A program made the position numbers and the translations under genes. The notes under the pieces were generated by a model. It worked only from the letters and a program-made list of their open reading frames with translations, did no database searches and had not been told where the DNA came from. A stretch of 64,000 bases of DNA from contig PNKH01000024.1 in assembly GCA_013822345.1 (NCBI GenBank), forward strand, positions 1-64,000, in the 5' to 3' direction. Shown piece by piece: positions 18,431 through 58,014 of this stretch. The stretch is from Isosphaera sp. (GTDB lineage Bacteria; Planctomycetota; Planctomycetia; Gemmatales; Gemmataceae). Each line of letters starts with the position of its first letter. Positions within the stretch are counted from its first letter, which is position 1.

Positions 18431-21199
18431 ATGCCCGACAGCCTCAACAGCTTCAACAGCCTCGCCTCCCTGACCGTCGGCGGGAAGCCGTACACCATCC
18501 ACCGCCTCGCCGCCGTCGAGGCGGTCCACCCGCAGGCCAAGAAGCTCCCGTACTCGCTCAAGGTGCTGCTCGAGAACCTCCTCCGGAACGAGAACAACCT
18601 GAGCGTCCGGAAGGCCGACATCGACGCCCTCGCCCTGTGGCAGCCGAAGGCCGAGCCGGCGACCGAGATCAACTACACCCCGGCCCGGGTCCTGATGCAG
18701 GACTTCACCGGGGTGCCGTGCGTCGTCGACCTGGCCGCCATGCGGGACGCGATGAAGGCCCTCGGCGGCGACCCGGCCCGGATCAACCCGCTCGTCCCGG
18801 TCGAGCTGGTCATCGACCACTCCGTCCAGGTGGACGAGTACGGCACCGCCCGGGCGTTCGCCGACAACGTCCACCTGGAGTACGAGCGGAACCAGGAGCG
18901 GTACGCCTTCCTCCGGTGGGGCCAGAAGGCGTTCCGCAACTTCGAGGTCGTCCCCCCCGGGACCGGCATCTGCCACCAGGTGAACCTCGAGTTCCTGGCC
19001 CGCAGCGTGTTCGTCGACCCGCAGGGCCGGGCCTACCCGGACACCCTCGTCGGGACCGACAGCCACACCACCATGATCAACGGCCTCGGGGTGCTCGGGT
19101 GGGGCGTCGGCGGGATCGAGGCCGAGGCGGCGATGCTCGGCCAGCCGGTGTCGATGCTGATCCCGCAGGTGGTCGGGTTCAAGCTGTCCGGGAGGCTGAG
19201 GGAGGGGGCGACCGCGACCGACCTGGTGCTGACCGTCACCCAGATGCTGCGGAAGAAGGGGGTGGTCGGGAAGTTCGTCGAGTTCTACGGCCCGGGGCTG
19301 GCCCACCTGCCGCTGGCCGACCGGGCGACGATCGCGAACATGGCCCCGGAGTACGGGGCGACCTGCGGCATCTTCCCGGTCGACGCCGAGACCCTGCGGT
19401 TCCTGGAGCTGACCGGCCGGCCGCCGGAGCTGGTGGCCCTGGCCGAGGCGTACTACCGGGAGCAGGGGATGTTCCACGACGCGAACACCCCGGACGCCGC
19501 CTACTCCGACACCCTCGAGCTCGACCTCGCCACCGTCGAGCCGAGCCTGGCCGGGCCGAGCCGGCCGCAGGACCGGGTGCCGCTCCAGAAGATGAAGGCG
19601 GCGTTCGCCGAGGCCCTGCCGAAGCTGAGGACGGCGGCCCAGGGGCGGCCGCCGGCCGGGGTCCCGCTCCCGGTGGTGGCGGCCGGCACCACCCCGACGG
19701 CGGAGGCGTTCGCCCCCAAGCCCGGGGCCGGGGAGGTGGACCCGCTGGCCGCCGGCCAGCTCACCCACGGGTCGGTGGTGATCGCCGCCATCACCAGCTG
19801 CACCAACACCTCGAACCCGTCGGTCATGCTGGCCGCCGGGGTGCTGGCGAGGAAGGCGGCGGCCCGCGGGCTGCAGACCAGGCCGTGGGTGAAGACCAGT
19901 CTCGCACCGGGGTCCCAGGTGGTCACCGCGTACCTCGCCGACGCCGGCGTCCTCCCGGAGCTGGAGAAGCTCCGGTTCCACGTCGTCGGGTACGGGTGCA
20001 CCACCTGCATCGGGAACAGCGGCCCGCTCCCGGAGGCGGTGTCGAAGGAGATCCACGACGAGGGGCTGGTGGTGTCGGCCGTGCTGTCCGGGAACCGGAA
20101 CTTCGAGGGCCGGGTCCACCCGGAGGTGCGGGCGAACTACCTCGCCAGCCCGCCCCTGGTCGTCGCCTACGCCCTGGCCGGGCGGGTCGACATCGACTGG
20201 GAGGCCGAGCCGATCGACACCGGGAGCGACGGCCGGCCGGTGTACCTGCGGGACATCTGGCCGACCCACGAGGAGGTGACCGAGGCGATCACGAAGTCGG
20301 TCCGGCGGGAGGCGTTCGAGCGGACCTACCGGTCGGTGTACGACGGGAGCGCCGAGTGGAAGGCCCTGCGGGTGCCGACCGGCGACCTGTACGCCTGGGA
20401 CGCGTCCTCGACGTACATCGCCAACCCGCCGTACTTCCGCGGCATGGGGATCGACCCGCCCCCGGTGTCCGAGGTCACCGGGGCCCGGGTGCTGGCGGTG
20501 CTCGGGGACAGCATCACCACCGACCACATCTCCCCGGCCGGGAACATCAAGAAGGACTCCCCGGCCGGGAAGTACCTGATGGCCCACGGGGTGGAGCCGA
20601 AGGACTTCAACCAGTACGGGGCGCGGCGCGGGCACCACGAGGTGATGATGCGGGGGACGTTCGCGAACGTCCGGCTGAAGAACCAGCTCGTCCCGGGGGT
20701 GGAGGGCGGGTTCACCCGGCACCTGCCGGCCGGCCCGCAGACCAGCATCTACGAGGCGTCGACGGCGTACCAGAAGGACGGGGTGCCGCTGGTGGTGCTG
20801 GCCGGGAAGGAGTACGGGTCGGGGTCGAGCCGGGACTGGGCGGCGAAGGGGACGAACCTGCTCGGGGTGAAGGCGGTGGTGGCCGAGAGCTACGAGCGGA
20901 TCCACCGCAGCAACCTGGTCGGGATGGGGGTGCTGCCGCTGCAGTTCAAGGTCGGGGAGGGGGTGGCCGCGCTGGGGCTGACCGGCGAGGAGGTGTTCGA
21001 CGTCGGCGGGCTGGTGGACGGGCTGAAGACCAACTTCGCCGGGGCCGCCAAGGAGTTGACGGTGACCGCGACGCGGGCCGACGGGACGACGGTCGCGTTC
21101 AAGGCGGTCTGCCGGATCGACACCCCGCAGGAGGTTCTGTACTATCTCCACGGCGGCATCCTGCCGTACGTCCTGCGGCAGCTGCTCGCGGCCCAGTGA
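18431..21199 (+). CDS. acnA: Aconitate hydratase A
   Basis: This 922-residue enzyme interconverts citrate and isocitrate in the TCA cycle. The AcnA/IRP1 order is complete: [20 protein letters not shown], then the 4Fe-4S ligands Cys457 (SCTNTSNPS) and Cys523/Cys526 ([12 protein letters not shown]), and the C-terminal swivel domain with [13 protein letters not shown]. The N-terminal [17 protein letters not shown] is typical of AcnA rather than AcnB. A linker of about 40 residues around 395-440 is Ala/Pro-rich. It is cytoplasmic, and its promoter seems to be the TACAAT element after the palindrome. Confidence 0.95.
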
Positions 21200-35119: not shown

Positions 35120-35329
35120 TCACCCCGATGGGTCGACGGACCCCAACCGGATCGCGGCCGTCGGGCAGACGAGTTCGCACGCCGCGCACGACACGCAGTC
35201 CAGCGGCCGCGGCAGCCACGGGAGTCGGCCCGCCACCGCCAGGCACGCCGTCGGGCAGACCGCCACGCAGTCCCCGCACCCCGTGCAGCGGGCCGCGTCC
35301 AGCACCGGCAGCTCCACCTCCCCGCTCAT
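35120..35329 (-). CDS. 2[4Fe-4S] ferredoxin
   Basis: This 69-residue protein carries two complete cluster motifs, CTGCGDCVAVCP and CVSCAACELVCP, so it should hold two 4Fe-4S clusters and carry electrons in the cytoplasm. The spacing matches the short bacterial ferredoxins, with a longer loop (GRLPWLPRPLD) between the motifs. Its ATG overlaps the stop of the pseudo-receiver gene upstream by four bases, so the two are coupled. It is the last gene of a three-gene unit with a regulator, which is an unusual setting for a ferredoxin. Confidence 0.9.
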   Translation of the reverse strand: MSGEVELPVLDAARCTGCGDCVAVCPTACLAVAGRLPWLPRPLDCVSCAACELVCPTAAIRLGSVDPSG

Positions 35330-35784
35330 CCGTCCCCGTCCTCGTCGGCCAGGTCGATCACCCCGCCCGCCGCCTCACCGCCCGTCGTCCGCCGCACCGC
35401 CGCCGCCATCAGCCCGCTCACCACGTCCTCCAACACCGGCCGGGTCAGCGGCGGGAACAGCACGCACCGCGCCCCGAGGTCGAGCACCGCCGCCGCCCAC
35501 GCCGCCCGCCCCGCGTCCGGCAGCTTCGCGTCCGCCACCCCCACCGCCGGCACGTCCGGGGCCAGCCGGCGGGCGTCGGCGATCAGCCCGAGCGGGCCGG
35601 CCGCGTCGCCCCCCGGGTCGAACTGCACCAGCAGCACCGCCGGCCCGCCCGCCCGCACCAGTGACAACGCGCTGTCAGTCGTCCGCGGCGCCCGGACCAG
35701 CCACCGGCTCTCGGCGGCCAGGTCGCGCAGCTGCTTCGCGACCCACCCGTCCGACTCCAGCACGACCACCCGCGGGTGCTTCAC
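35326..35784 (-). CDS. Receiver-like (pseudo-receiver) protein
   Basis: This protein of 152 residues resembles a response-regulator receiver. Strand 1 is RVVVLESDGWVAKQL, strand 3 PAVLLVQFDPGGD, strand 4 VPAVGVADAKLP, and strand 5 CVLFPPLTRPVLEDVV. The usual lysine before proline after strand 5 is replaced (FPPL), and the strand 1 acidic pair is reduced to ESD, so phosphorylation is doubtful. It has no output domain. The GTG start overlaps the stop of the upstream AAA regulator, and its own stop overlaps the ferredoxin ATG. It probably senses or relays by protein contact, an inference. Confidence 0.6.
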   Translation of the reverse strand: MKHPRVVVLESDGWVAKQLRDLAAESRWLVRAPRTTDSALSLVRAGGPAVLLVQFDPGGDAAGPLGLIADARRLAPDVPAVGVADAKLPDAGRAAWAAAVLDLGARCVLFPPLTRPVLEDVVSGLMAAAVRRTTGGEAAGGVIDLADEDGDG

Positions 35785-37121
35785 GCGGTCCCTCCGGTCG
35801 CTGACGCCCCCGGCTCGCCGGGCTTCACGATCCCCAGCGCCTCCAGGCGCCGGCCGAGCCGCGCCCGGAACACCCCGAGCAACTCCGCCGCCCGCGTCTG
35901 GTTGTCGCCCGCCCGCCGCAGCGCCAGCCCGATCAGCCGGCGCTCCACCGCCTCCAGGATCGGGTCGAGGGTGATCGGCCGCGGGGCGACCGCCGGCGGG
36001 ACGATCCCGGCCCGCACCCGGAACTCCCGCGGCAGGTGCTCGACCTTCACCGCCCCGCCGCCCGCGGCGGCCGTCGCCCCGCGGAGCACGTCGGCCAGCT
36101 CGCGCAGGTTCCCGGGCCACGGCTGGGCCGCGAGCAGGTCGAGCGCCGCCGGGTCGAGCACCAGCCCCGGAAACCACCGGGCGACGAACCGCGGCAGGTC
36201 GGCGAACCGGTCGCGCAGCGGCGGCACCGGCAGCTCGAGCACCGACAGGTTCGTGTGGAAGACCGGGACCAGCTTCCCGGCGGCGACCGCCGCGGCGGCC
36301 GTGGTCGTCGACCCGCACACCAGCCGCGGGCCGTTCTCGGCGAACAGGTCGGCGAGCCGCTGCTGCAGGTCGCGCGGCAGCGCCGCCGGGTCCTTCAGGT
36401 AGACCGTGCCGACGTGCCCGGTGTCCGCGACCCCGCCGTGCCCGAACAGCAGGCTCTCGACCAGGTACGGCTGAAGCCCGGCGCAGTCGACGGCGACGAA
36501 CGCCCGGTCGCGGCTCGCCCCGGCGTGGTGGATCACCCGGGCCGCCGTCTCCTTCCCGGACCCGGGCTCGCCGACCAGCCACACCGGGACGCCGGGCGAG
36601 TTCGCGGCGTGCCGGAGCAGTCCGACGAACCGCCGCGTCGCGGGGGACGGGCCGGCGAACAGGTCGGGGGTGTAGTGGGTGGCGTGCCTGGCCCGCAGCG
36701 CGGCGACGGCCGGGGGGACGGCGCGGGCGGCGGCCGGGGCCGGTTCGCCGACGACCGCGATGAAGCCGACCATGGCGTCGGCGCCGGCGAGCGGGACGAA
36801 GGTGATGTCCCACCACGGCGGGCCGGCGCGGGCGGTCGGCGGCGGGCGGCGGGCGGTGTCGGGCCGGCCGGCGCGGGCCTCGGGCGTCGGGGCGAGGGCG
36901 GCCGCGAGCGGGGTGCCGTGCCGGCGGCCGGAGCAGACCATCCCGGCCGCGTCGTCCAGTTTCACCCCGGTCAGTTCTTCCCACGCGGCGTTGGCGAACC
37001 GAAGCCGGCGGCCTTTCCCGAGCACGAACACCGGCGTGGTCGACTGCTGGAAGAACGCCCGCCAGGCGAACGACTCGGACCCGGGCGGCCGACCCGGGCG
37101 GTTCGGCGGGGTGTCGGGCAT
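35781..37121 (-). CDS. PAS-AAA-Fis regulator lacking the GAFTGA loop
   Basis: This protein of 446 residues has an N-terminal PAS domain (about 22-130: FFQQSTTPVFVLGKGRRLRF, then AAWEELTGV). A sigma54-activator-type AAA domain follows with Walker A GEPGSGKE near 182, LFGHGG, and RDRFADLPRFVARWF. A Fis-type helix-turn-helix ends it (NQTRAAELLGVFRARLGRRL). The loop that contacts sigma54 (GAFTGA) is replaced by VADTGHV, so it probably cannot open sigma54 promoters and may regulate otherwise. The Walker B region (TVYLKDPAALP) is also altered. The ATG at 37121 gives a globular start. It heads the unit with the pseudo-receiver and ferredoxin. Confidence 0.8.
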   Translation of the reverse strand: MPDTPPNRPGRPPGSESFAWRAFFQQSTTPVFVLGKGRRLRFANAAWEELTGVKLDDAAGMVCSGRRHGTPLAAALAPTPEARAGRPDTARRPPPTARAGPPWWDITFVPLAGADAMVGFIAVVGEPAPAAARAVPPAVAALRARHATHYTPDLFAGPSPATRRFVGLLRHAANSPGVPVWLVGEPGSGKETAARVIHHAGASRDRAFVAVDCAGLQPYLVESLLFGHGGVADTGHVGTVYLKDPAALPRDLQQRLADLFAENGPRLVCGSTTTAAAAVAAGKLVPVFHTNLSVLELPVPPLRDRFADLPRFVARWFPGLVLDPAALDLLAAQPWPGNLRELADVLRGATAAAGGGAVKVEHLPREFRVRAGIVPPAVAPRPITLDPILEAVERRLIGLALRRAGDNQTRAAELLGVFRARLGRRLEALGIVKPGEPGASATGGTA

Positions 37122-37195
37122 CGTCGGGACCCCTCGCGGCGCGGACCGGTTCATCGTACCCGAACTTGCCCTTTTTTTCCCCGCCCCGGCGGGCT

Positions 37196-37201
37196 TATAG
37201 T
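37196..37201 (+). promoter_or_regulatory. Candidate -10 element TATAGT
   Basis: TATAGT lies about 59 bases before the start of the Pro/Glu-rich protein. No good -35 at 17 bases is seen. It is in the shared spacer with the divergent AAA regulator. Confidence 0.35.
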
Positions 37202-37259
37202 CTCCCCGCGGCGCCCCGCGCCGTCGCCACAGCAGGATGCCGGCCGCGGAAGGATGCGC

Positions 37260-38018
37260 ATGGCGACCGCCCCGAGCCCGAACGACCTGACCCGGCAGCA
37301 GCTCGACGAGCTCGACGCGCTGCTCCAGCGGATGCTGTCGCTCCCGGCCGCCCCGCCCGGCGGGTTCCCGCCGCCGGGGCCCGCCCCGATCGTCCTCCCC
37401 CCGGTCCCGGTCGCCCGCCCGGCGTACATCCCGCCGCCGCCGGCCCCGGCCCCGGTCGTCGTGCCGCCCGTCCTCGCCCCGGCCCGCCGTCCGGACCCGC
37501 CCGCCCCGGTGGTCCCCGCCCCGCGGCTGCTCCCCGTGCCGGAGCCGGAACCCGAGCCGGCCCGCGAGCCGGAGCCCCGCGCCTCCTGGTACGAGCCGCC
37601 CACGGCGGACGAGCGGCCGGCGGCCGTCCGGCCCGCGCCGGAGCCCGAGGCCGAGCCGATCCCCGAGGCGGAGCCGGAAGCCGAGCCGCTCGCCGAGGCG
37701 CTCCCCGACCCGGAACCGGAGCGGCGACCGGCCCCTACCCCGCGCCCGCAGCCGCGCCCGGCCCCCGTGCCGGCCGCCACGGTCGTTCCCCAGTCCCCCG
37801 TCCCCGACCCCCCGTCCGCGAACCCGCTGGTCCTGTTCAACCGGGGGCTGAACGGCGTGCTCGGGGCGCTCGGGCTGCCGGGGCGGGTCGCCCGGTCCGG
37901 GTTCGTGAAGAACCTGTTCGGCCTCGCCGGGCTGGGGTTGCTCGCGTACACCGGGGCGAAGGTGGCCGAGGCCCACGGGTGGGTTCTGCTGCCGTTCCCC
38001 CTCCCTTGGCCCCGCTGA
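37260..38018 (+). CDS. Pro/Glu-rich protein with C-terminal membrane helix
   Basis: This protein of 252 residues opens with a helical LTRQQLDELDALLQRMLSLP, followed by about 150 residues rich in Pro, Ala, Glu and Arg (PEPEPEPAREPEPR). It ends with a conserved-looking NPLVLFNRGLNGVLGALGLP and a membrane helix (FGLAGLGLLAYTGAKVAEA). It is probably tail-anchored with a long extended linker. I do not know the family. Two in-frame ATGs (37254 and 37260) are possible; the second sits at good distance from GGAAGGA. Confidence 0.65.
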   Translation: MATAPSPNDLTRQQLDELDALLQRMLSLPAAPPGGFPPPGPAPIVLPPVPVARPAYIPPPPAPAPVVVPPVLAPARRPDPPAPVVPAPRLLPVPEPEPEPAREPEPRASWYEPPTADERPAAVRPAPEPEAEPIPEAEPEAEPLAEALPDPEPERRPAPTPRPQPRPAPVPAATVVPQSPVPDPPSANPLVLFNRGLNGVLGALGLPGRVARSGFVKNLFGLAGLGLLAYTGAKVAEAHGWVLLPFPLPWPR

Positions 38019-38103: not shown

Positions 38104-38763
38104 GTGGACCCCCCGCCGATGGCACCCCCCGAGCCGCCGCCCCTCCCGCCGGTCAAACTCGACTTCCCCGCCGCCCTCCTCAGCTACCTGGTCCCCGGCC
38201 TCGGGCAGGTGTACCAGGGGCGGGTCGGGAAGGGGCTGCTGTTCTTCGCCGGGCTGTACCTGTTGTTCTTCTACGGGATGGCGATGGGGCAGTGGCGGAA
38301 CGTCTGGCTCCCGGACCCGGCCGAGCTGCCGGACATGGAGGTCCGCGGGGTGCGGCTCGGCGGGTGGGTGAAGGCGGTGGCGTACCGCCCGCAGTTCCTC
38401 GCCCAGTTCTGGATCGGGACGGCGGCGTGGCCGGCGGTCACCCAGTACGCCCTGTACGACCGGGGGAAGGACGAGGGGCCGGTGTTCGGGACGTTCCAGC
38501 GGGCCCCGACCGAGGCCGAGCTGAACGACCTGCAGCGGCGCGGGTCGAAGCGGTGGGACCTGGGGTGGGTGTACACCGTGATCGCCGGGGTGCTGAACCT
38601 GCTGGTGATCTACGACGCCCTCGCCGGGCCGATGTTCCGTGACCCGCCGAAGGAGGCCGAGGCCCCGGACGACGGCCCCGCCGCGGCCCCGCCGCCCGCC
38701 GACCCGCCGGTGCCGCCCGACTTCGTCCCGCTGCCCGCCAGCCCGGAAGGGAGGACGCCGTGA
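38104..38763 (+). CDS. DUF6677-like membrane protein
   Basis: This protein of 219 residues has LLSYLVPGLGQVYQGRVGKG followed by FFAGLYLLFFYGMAMGQW, a TM2-like pair of helices. Further hydrophobic segments lie at about 98-112 and 160-178 (WVYTVIAGVLNLLVIYDAL). The pattern fits planctomycete proteins annotated DUF6677, of unknown function. The tail is Pro/Ala-rich. The GTG at 38104 is used, though an ATG at 38119 is as likely. Its stop overlaps the start of the next small membrane protein as GTGA. Confidence 0.65.
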   Translation: MDPPPMAPPEPPPLPPVKLDFPAALLSYLVPGLGQVYQGRVGKGLLFFAGLYLLFFYGMAMGQWRNVWLPDPAELPDMEVRGVRLGGWVKAVAYRPQFLAQFWIGTAAWPAVTQYALYDRGKDEGPVFGTFQRAPTEAELNDLQRRGSKRWDLGWVYTVIAGVLNLLVIYDALAGPMFRDPPKEAEAPDDGPAAAPPPADPPVPPDFVPLPASPEGRTP

Positions 38764-57403: not shown

Positions 57404-57790
57404 TCACCACAGCCGGGTGACGCCGTAGAGGTCGAAGGCGGCGTCCGCGCCGACGACCGGGATGCCTTCGACCAGCGCCTGGGCGATCAGGAGGCGGTCG
57501 AACGGATCCTTATGGTGGTCGGGCAAACCCGCCTGGCGGTCCGCGTACTCGACGGTGACGGGAATGATGTCGAGCTTCAGGTCGGCGATCGCCCGCTCCA
57601 TCCACTGCCGGTACGGCAGCGACAGGATGAGCTTCCCCAGCCCGAACTTGATCGCCAGTTCCCACACGGTCGCGGCGCTCAACAGGCGGTTGTTGGCCGG
57701 CTCCCGGATCGCCGCCGACGCCGCGGTGCTCAACTTGGCCGGGTCGTCGGCCGCCCACAACAGGGTGTGCGTGTCGAGCAGCAGTCTCAC
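57404..57790 (-). CDS. Type II toxin, PIN domain (VapC-like)
   Basis: This protein of 128 residues is a PIN-domain ribonuclease: Asp6 in LLLDTHTLLWA, Glu44 in SAATVWELAIK and Asp98 in DPFDRLLIAQAL are the metal-binding acids, all present. It should cleave RNA when free of its antitoxin. The GTG start overlaps the antitoxin stop by four bases, which ties the two in translation. Codon use is less GC-biased than nearby genes. The stop is followed by the decayed trpD end. Confidence 0.88.
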   Translation of the reverse strand: MRLLLDTHTLLWAADDPAKLSTAASAAIREPANNRLLSAATVWELAIKFGLGKLILSLPYRQWMERAIADLKLDIIPVTVEYADRQAGLPDHHKDPFDRLLIAQALVEGIPVVGADAAFDLYGVTRLW

Positions 57791-58014
57791 CGCAGGTACT
57801 CTTCGAAGCCGTCGGGGATCGCGTCGAAGTCCGCCGCGACTGCCAGAACCGTCCCCTTCAGCGTCCCGAGGCGCGGGGCCTCGCGGGGCGGGGTCGCCCG
57901 GATGGCGGCCACCGGCGTGCCGCCGCGGGTCAGCACGACCTCTTCGCCCGGCGCCAACCGGTCGATGATCTCGGCCAGCCGAGTCTGAGCCTCCTCCACG
58001 GTGACCGTCGCCAT
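57787..58014 (-). CDS. Type II antitoxin, Phd/YefM family
   Basis: This 75-residue protein opens with a Phd/YefM DNA-binding half (TVEEAQTRLAEIIDRLAPGE, then VVLTRGGTPVAAI). The C-terminal half (LAVAADFDAIPDGFEEYLR) should wrap the toxin and block its active site. It probably represses its own operon with the toxin. It begins four bases after the trpD stop, and the trpD end (AGGGGG) supplies its ribosome site, so it depends on trpD transcription or an internal promoter. Confidence 0.88.
   Translation of the reverse strand: MATVTVEEAQTRLAEIIDRLAPGEEVVLTRGGTPVAAIRATPPREAPRLGTLKGTVLAVAADFDAIPDGFEEYLR

Follow-up and report, generated by a model that had tools for sequence, protein, structure and literature searches.

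What process is served by three overlapping genes that encode a descendant of the sigma54 activators, a receiver-like protein and a ferredoxin? The question is raised by a 64,000-nucleotide stretch of the Isosphaera sp. contig PNKH01000024.1 (order Gemmatales), referred to here as the window, in which three open reading frames, REG, then MID, then FDX, lie on the minus strand between 37121 and 35120. A sequence-only reading of this DNA had proposed a redox-sensing or redox-driven control module, encoded by three genes with stop-to-start overlaps of about four bases. The overlaps were confirmed: the REG stop and MID start share GTGA (35784-35781), and the MID stop and FDX start share ATGA (35329-35326). 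Coordinates of the genes and of their main features are collected in Table 1. No conserved motif was found in the DNA upstream of REG, where 300 bases at 13 congeneric loci did not align. Elsewhere in the window, a gene for aconitase, an iron-sulfur enzyme (18431-21199, plus strand; Pfam Aconitase, E = 1e-167), lies about 14 kb from the three genes. A PIN-domain gene and a preceding Phd/YefM-like gene with overlapping ends (57404-58014, minus strand) are likely to form a toxin-antitoxin pair, the Phd/YefM-like antitoxin scoring just below the Pfam cut-off.

Table 1. Positions in the window of REG, MID and FDX and of the features discussed in the text.
Feature	Position	Strand	Description and basis
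REG	35781..37121	-	ATG start, 446 aa; PAS, degenerate AAA and Fis-type HTH regulator; AF2 mean pLDDT 88.7; class-wide orthologues
MID	35326..35784	-	GTG start, 152 aa; stand-alone pseudo-receiver; AF2 (beta-alpha)5 fold; Foldseek receivers
FDX	35120..35329	-	ATG start, 69 aa; 2[4Fe-4S] ferredoxin; Pfam Fer4_7 1e-11; eight ligand cysteines and C29
Intergenic region, REG to divergent gene at ~37262	37122..37261	.	Presumed promoter
REG PAS domain, ~residues 18-124	36750..37070	-	Pfam PAS_8 and predicted fold
REG Walker A, GEPGSGK, intact	36552..36572	-	Sequence
REG site of deleted L1/GAFTGA loop, FGHGGVADTGHVGT	36405..36446	-	Profile alignment
REG degenerate Walker B, VYLKDP (canonical LFLDE)	36387..36404	-	Sequence
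REG arginine-finger segment without arginines, FHTNLSV	36240..36260	-	Comparison with ZraR FRQDLYYRLNV
REG Fis-type helix-turn-helix core	35829..35897	-	Pfam HTH_8
MID acceptor segment, LLVQFD	35617..35634	-	Gln at receiver phospho-Asp position
MID C-terminal tail, VIDLADED	35338..35361	-	Conserved short motif, 15/15 congeneric MIDs examined

Analysis of REG by Pfam identified the domains PAS_8, Sigma54_activ_2, AAA_lid_14 and HTH_8, and no others. In Foldseek comparisons its AF2 model resembled NtrX, ZraR, FleQ and PspF, with Brucella NtrX as the top match. Features of the bacterial enhancer-binding proteins (bEBPs) retained by REG include the homologous AAA fold, the Walker A motif and the Fis-type helix-turn-helix, as determined by Pfam, PDB profile and Foldseek, and residues A412, L415, R419 and R425 of the helix-turn-helix were invariant across 37 REG sequences. 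A GxxC cysteine of the PAS domain (C63) was conserved in at least 90% of the REG alignment. LOV domains carry NCRFLQ; the window reads VCSGRR, and LOV-type photosensing through this cysteine was rejected. A cluster-binding site of its own, as in the Rrf2- or DeoR-type proteins IscR and SufR, was sought in REG, and Pfam recognised no cluster-binding domain.

The first gene had been described as sigma54-activator-like, without GAFTGA, and with the loop replaced by VADTGHV. The likeness and the absence of the motif held, but the loop is deleted rather than replaced: in profile alignment with ZraR, the stretch of loop L1 that carries GAFTGA faces a 12-position gap in REG. The motif was absent from all REG orthologues examined. 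Walker B Asp-Glu is changed to Lys-Asp (YLKD) in the window protein and is degenerate in most orthologues, a minority keeping an Asp-acid pair. Walker A, in the REG proteins of group f6, is commonly GPxGSGR, with arginine often in place of lysine (f3, f4, f6, f7 and the like are group codes). REG thus has the anatomy of a GAFTGA-less bEBP, with an NtrC-type AAA domain and a Fis HTH from which the L1/GAFTGA segment is deleted. Because the Walker B Asp-Glu and the arginine fingers are also lost, REG is probably a pseudo-ATPase.

The origin of this deletion was examined with a tree built on the AAA and HTH parts of the proteins, from which columns less than 60% filled, and with them the loop itself, were dropped. 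REG orthologues and same-class paralogues were sorted into those with and those without GAFTGA, the paralogues having been picked on their profile scores ahead of any inspection for the motif. The 64 proteins without GAFTGA and the 19 with it were split across one branch, with an SH-aLRT of 100. As judged from this tree, the loss of GAFTGA is that of one lineage. Two PAS-containing paralogues from f3 and f6 genomes (L144 and L145) keep both GAFTGA and LFLDE and are possible intact sisters of REG.

MID had no match in Pfam or NCBIfam. The AF2 model, made from 26 homologues, displayed a (beta-alpha)5 receiver fold (pLDDT 92.1), and its best PDB matches by Foldseek were response-regulator receivers (E = 3e-7). 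Across 41 MID homologues, 19 from the order and 22 from group f6, the phospho-acceptor column was never Asp. It was mostly Gln or Lys in the order (also Arg and a few others) and mostly Glu in f6. The column of the conserved receiver Lys was mostly Pro in the order and Ser or Gly in f6, and was never Lys. The second gene is receiver-like and without the lysine, as had been claimed, and the phospho-acceptor aspartate is missing too. MID is, on its predicted fold and these two columns, a receiver incapable of phosphorylation. Several f6 homologues (L042, L110, L118, L038 and others) share a similar IWxRLPW-type C-terminal tail, unlike the VIDLADEE tail of the genus.

The third gene had been read as a 2[4Fe-4S] ferredoxin, and the Pfam 4Fe-4S dicluster match and eight ligand cysteines agree. 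FDX contains two CxxCxxCxxxC motifs, from which it is predicted to bind two [4Fe-4S] clusters. All eight ligand cysteines are present in the window and in nearly all order members; C18 was replaced in two order homologues and four outside it. An extra cysteine, C29, was conserved. In this FDX may resemble Azotobacter ferredoxin I, which has an extra cysteine near a cluster. The records closest to FDX by alignment search came from Gemmata, Fimbriiglobus, Limnoglobus and other Gemmatales. In genome G037 there is an additional copy of FDX, accompanied by the remnant of a MID gene, at the end of a contig (L082, 4107-4448).

Conservation was then followed through 102 genomes of the order, with orthologues called by score gap against background. 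REG was found in 71, MID in 71 and FDX in 66; all three occurred in 63 genomes and none in 28, counts that shared descent makes less than independent and in which some absences may stem from incomplete assemblies. REG and MID were present together in 70 of the 71 REG genomes, unlinked cases included, seven genomes having both without FDX and one having REG alone. The three genes were contiguous in 44 genomes, REG and MID in 55, and MID and FDX in 57. A neighbourhood not conserved in relatives would have told against the proposed module; the three-gene order was instead found in f1 and in f2, the two families of the order. The arrangement is not a product of chance: within the genus, MID and FDX matches were ~48-82% identical (tblastn), almost every locus had the same gene order, and most had the four-base MID-FDX overlap. 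Over the loci measured, this overlap was kept at 15 of 22, compared with 7 of 24 for REG-MID, and in 12 genomes MID and FDX were paired far from REG. The MID-FDX coupling is the tightest in the module. Co-transcription of all three genes is not required, since MID-FDX lies far from REG in about a dozen genomes of the order. Mrp was not found near the module at any locus examined in the order. Among unlinked FDX or MID-FDX loci of the order, no partner recurred beyond a DUF6677 gene near REG and, in a few genomes, a kinase-domain gene near FDX. The DUF6677 gene is at 38104-38763 (plus strand) in the window, and repeatedly adjoins REG within the order (also at L046, L047, L049 and L056).

Orthologues of REG recur across the class. 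The best REG-like matches from the rest of the phylum retain GAFTGA and were excluded. In group f6, a gene for Mrp/ApbC was downstream of REG on the same strand in 26 of 37 REG genomes, with the Mrp P-loop domain 0.8-1.3 kb from REG. Mrp/ApbC is single-copy in those genomes, and the chance probability of the linkage was ~4e-74 for idealised independent genomes, a figure that ignores shared descent. An iterative profile search placed a MID homologue directly downstream of REG at 20 of 28 f6 loci, Mrp being the gene that follows. Several f6 REG loci, like those of f4 and f8, had no iron-sulfur neighbour. In group f3, REG occurred with genes for an S24-type HTH protein, SufT/DUF59, a Rieske protein and a rhodanese at ~20 loci, and a conserved run of rhodanese, Rieske, SufT, S24-type HTH, REG and LpxB was seen at many (L031, L032, L035, L085-L104, L125-L130). 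REG genes of f4 and f8 (L037, L040, L041, L160-L165) had no MID, Mrp or SufT neighbours. FDX homologues were found directly upstream of Mrp in f4 and f7, with no MID or REG alongside, save in one f7 genome where FDX is fused behind a weakly MID-like domain and is directly followed by Mrp. In f5, an FDX homologue overlaps an ApbE gene, and another homologue lies ~2 kb from a class-V aminotransferase gene that reads like a cysteine desulfurase. The idea of a redox control module is strengthened in part by these data, in that relatives of REG and FDX recur near Mrp/ApbC, SufT, Rieske and rhodanese genes, and is weakened in its reliance on the ferredoxin. FDX is not essential to the module, because REG and MID persist in seven genomes that lack it and f6 has Mrp instead.

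The recurrence of FDX, Mrp, SufT, Rieske and rhodanese genes in these neighbourhoods suggests that the process served is iron-sulfur or redox homeostasis. We give about an even chance to a module for such homeostasis in which a dead REG acts on sigma70-type promoters, MID serves as an adaptor in trans, and FDX or Mrp conveys iron-sulfur status. A REG oligomer would bind DNA through its Fis-type domain. As the GAFTGA loop, Walker B and arginine fingers are lost, the most likely action of REG is to bind DNA and control promoters of the sigma70 type, probably including that of its own operon. GAFTGA-less relatives argue for the same promoter type: the NtrC proteins of Caulobacter and Rhodobacter, NtrX and VpsR are without the motif, and members of this group regulate sigma70 promoters (PMC10274813). 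MID would act in trans on REG as a protein-protein adaptor, taking the part that a fused receiver plays in NtrC/NtrX-type proteins. The gene after MID, FDX in the order of the window and Mrp/ApbC in f6, would supply or report iron-sulfur status, and its cluster-loaded or reduced product may bind MID and so alter the action of REG. A MID-FDX contact is favoured by the tight coupling, by the pairing of the two genes when REG is elsewhere and by the single fusion. The loss of FDX where REG and MID are kept favours FDX as a target or dispensable partner. Also counting against the proposal are the genome with REG alone, the REG loci of f4, f8 and part of f6 that have no iron-sulfur neighbour, the MID-FDX pairs far from REG, the absence of Mrp near the module at the order loci examined and the lack of a conserved motif upstream of REG; the fusion occurs in a single genome, and its MID-like part matches weakly. 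It is possible, though we hold it to be somewhat unlikely, that the arrangement amounts to a class-wide system in which an ATPase-dead REG is governed by a detached, non-phosphorylatable receiver with input from an iron-sulfur protein (ferredoxin or Mrp), resembling a two-component system in which occupancy by clusters or electrons takes the place of phosphate.

Several other explanations bear on the same data. The one with most weight is a plain autoregulated operon, in which REG and its co-regulator MID control the gene behind them (FDX or Mrp). FDX would here be a regulated electron carrier, for instance for cluster assembly, with no sensing role, and the signal would enter through PAS or MID. 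Genes for regulators are frequently located upstream of their targets, and it would fit this arrangement that the third gene varies (FDX in f1 and f2, Mrp in f6), that it can be lost with REG and MID retained, and that FDX lies beside Mrp in f4 and f7 without MID or REG, apart from the weak f7 fusion. The coupling of MID to FDX is, however, tighter than that of REG to MID, and the pair persists with REG elsewhere in 12 genomes, which would be odd for a mere target. We regard such an operon as a serious contender of lesser likelihood. It is more doubtful that redox state is sensed by MID, through a bound quinone or other ligand, and relayed to REG, with FDX or Mrp in an LdpA-like role. The predicted receiver fold without a phospho-acceptor would suit this role, and the pseudo-receivers of cyanobacterial CikA and KaiA provide a precedent, as both proteins bind analogues of quinone and are purified together with LdpA, an iron-sulfur protein (PMC6378743), but searches of Pfam and NCBIfam found no sequence relation of MID to the clock pseudo-receivers.

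Two further readings would remove the need for a module of this kind. Were the gene order neutral synteny without functional meaning, broken linkage in part of the order and the differing gene sets of f6 and f3 would be readily understood. Against this, REG and MID are co-present in nearly every REG genome even where unlinked, the f6 linkage to a single-copy Mrp is far beyond chance on the idealised estimate given above, and different iron-sulfur genes recur across groups. This leaves neutral synteny with a slim probability. That REG is a normal sigma54 activator whose loop is unusual would be compatible with the AAA-domain homology and the Walker A kept in the window, but not with the loss of GAFTGA, Walker B Asp-Glu and arginine fingers, nor with a separate lineage whose same-class paralogues keep GAFTGA, and we accord this explanation practically no probability. 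Normal activation of sigma54 promoters, which would have spoken against the sequence-only reading, is not what the REG sequence predicts, as it lacks the sigma54-remodelling features; that REG works as an ordinary sigma54 activator is very unlikely.

The preferred reading, an iron-sulfur or redox module built on REG, MID and FDX or Mrp, has relatives among known systems, each sharing a part. By protein type, the nearest are the GAFTGA-less NtrC-family regulators, which like REG combine an NtrC-type AAA domain with a Fis-type DNA-binding domain and have no GAFTGA segment in L1. Their receiver is fused, and aspartyl phosphorylation matters for both the Caulobacter and the Rhodobacter NtrC. REG instead carries a PAS domain and has iron-sulfur neighbours; its receiver is a separate protein that cannot be phosphorylated, and both the Walker B Asp-Glu and the arginine fingers are gone. 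By gene content, the nearest is the ORP system of Desulfovibrio, comprising the enhancer-binding protein DVU2106, MrpORP and Orp3/Orp4 (PMC6345978, PMC3897727), in which an enhancer-binding protein gene accompanies an Mrp/NBP35 carrier and [4Fe-4S] ferredoxin-motif proteins. The Desulfovibrio regulator is a working sigma54 activator; the planctomycete REG is without GAFTGA, has a pseudo-receiver and adjoins Mrp only in f6. By process, IscR and SufR are closest, being dedicated iron-sulfur regulators encoded with iron-sulfur biogenesis genes (PMC8593673). They belong to other protein families and hold the cluster themselves, while in the REG module sensing would sit in FDX or Mrp. By pairing, the likeness is to CikA/KaiA and LdpA, a pseudo-receiver and an iron-sulfur protein in redox input (PMC6378743), although CikA and KaiA are clock proteins with fused pseudo-receivers and MID stands alone. 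None of these systems has the whole combination, and no published description of the REG-MID-FDX combination was found in the open-licence literature.

The class-wide association of REG with iron-sulfur genes suggests an undescribed coupling of iron-sulfur or redox status to gene control. The module is directly testable in Gemmata-like bacteria, consisting of three small genes that are present or absent together. If the proposal is true, these bacteria would have another way to read iron-sulfur status, through an enhancer-binding protein with a dead motor and a receiver blind to phosphate, both linked to a ferredoxin or Mrp, and the catalytically dead sigma54-type regulators, a lineage found across the class, would gain a purpose.
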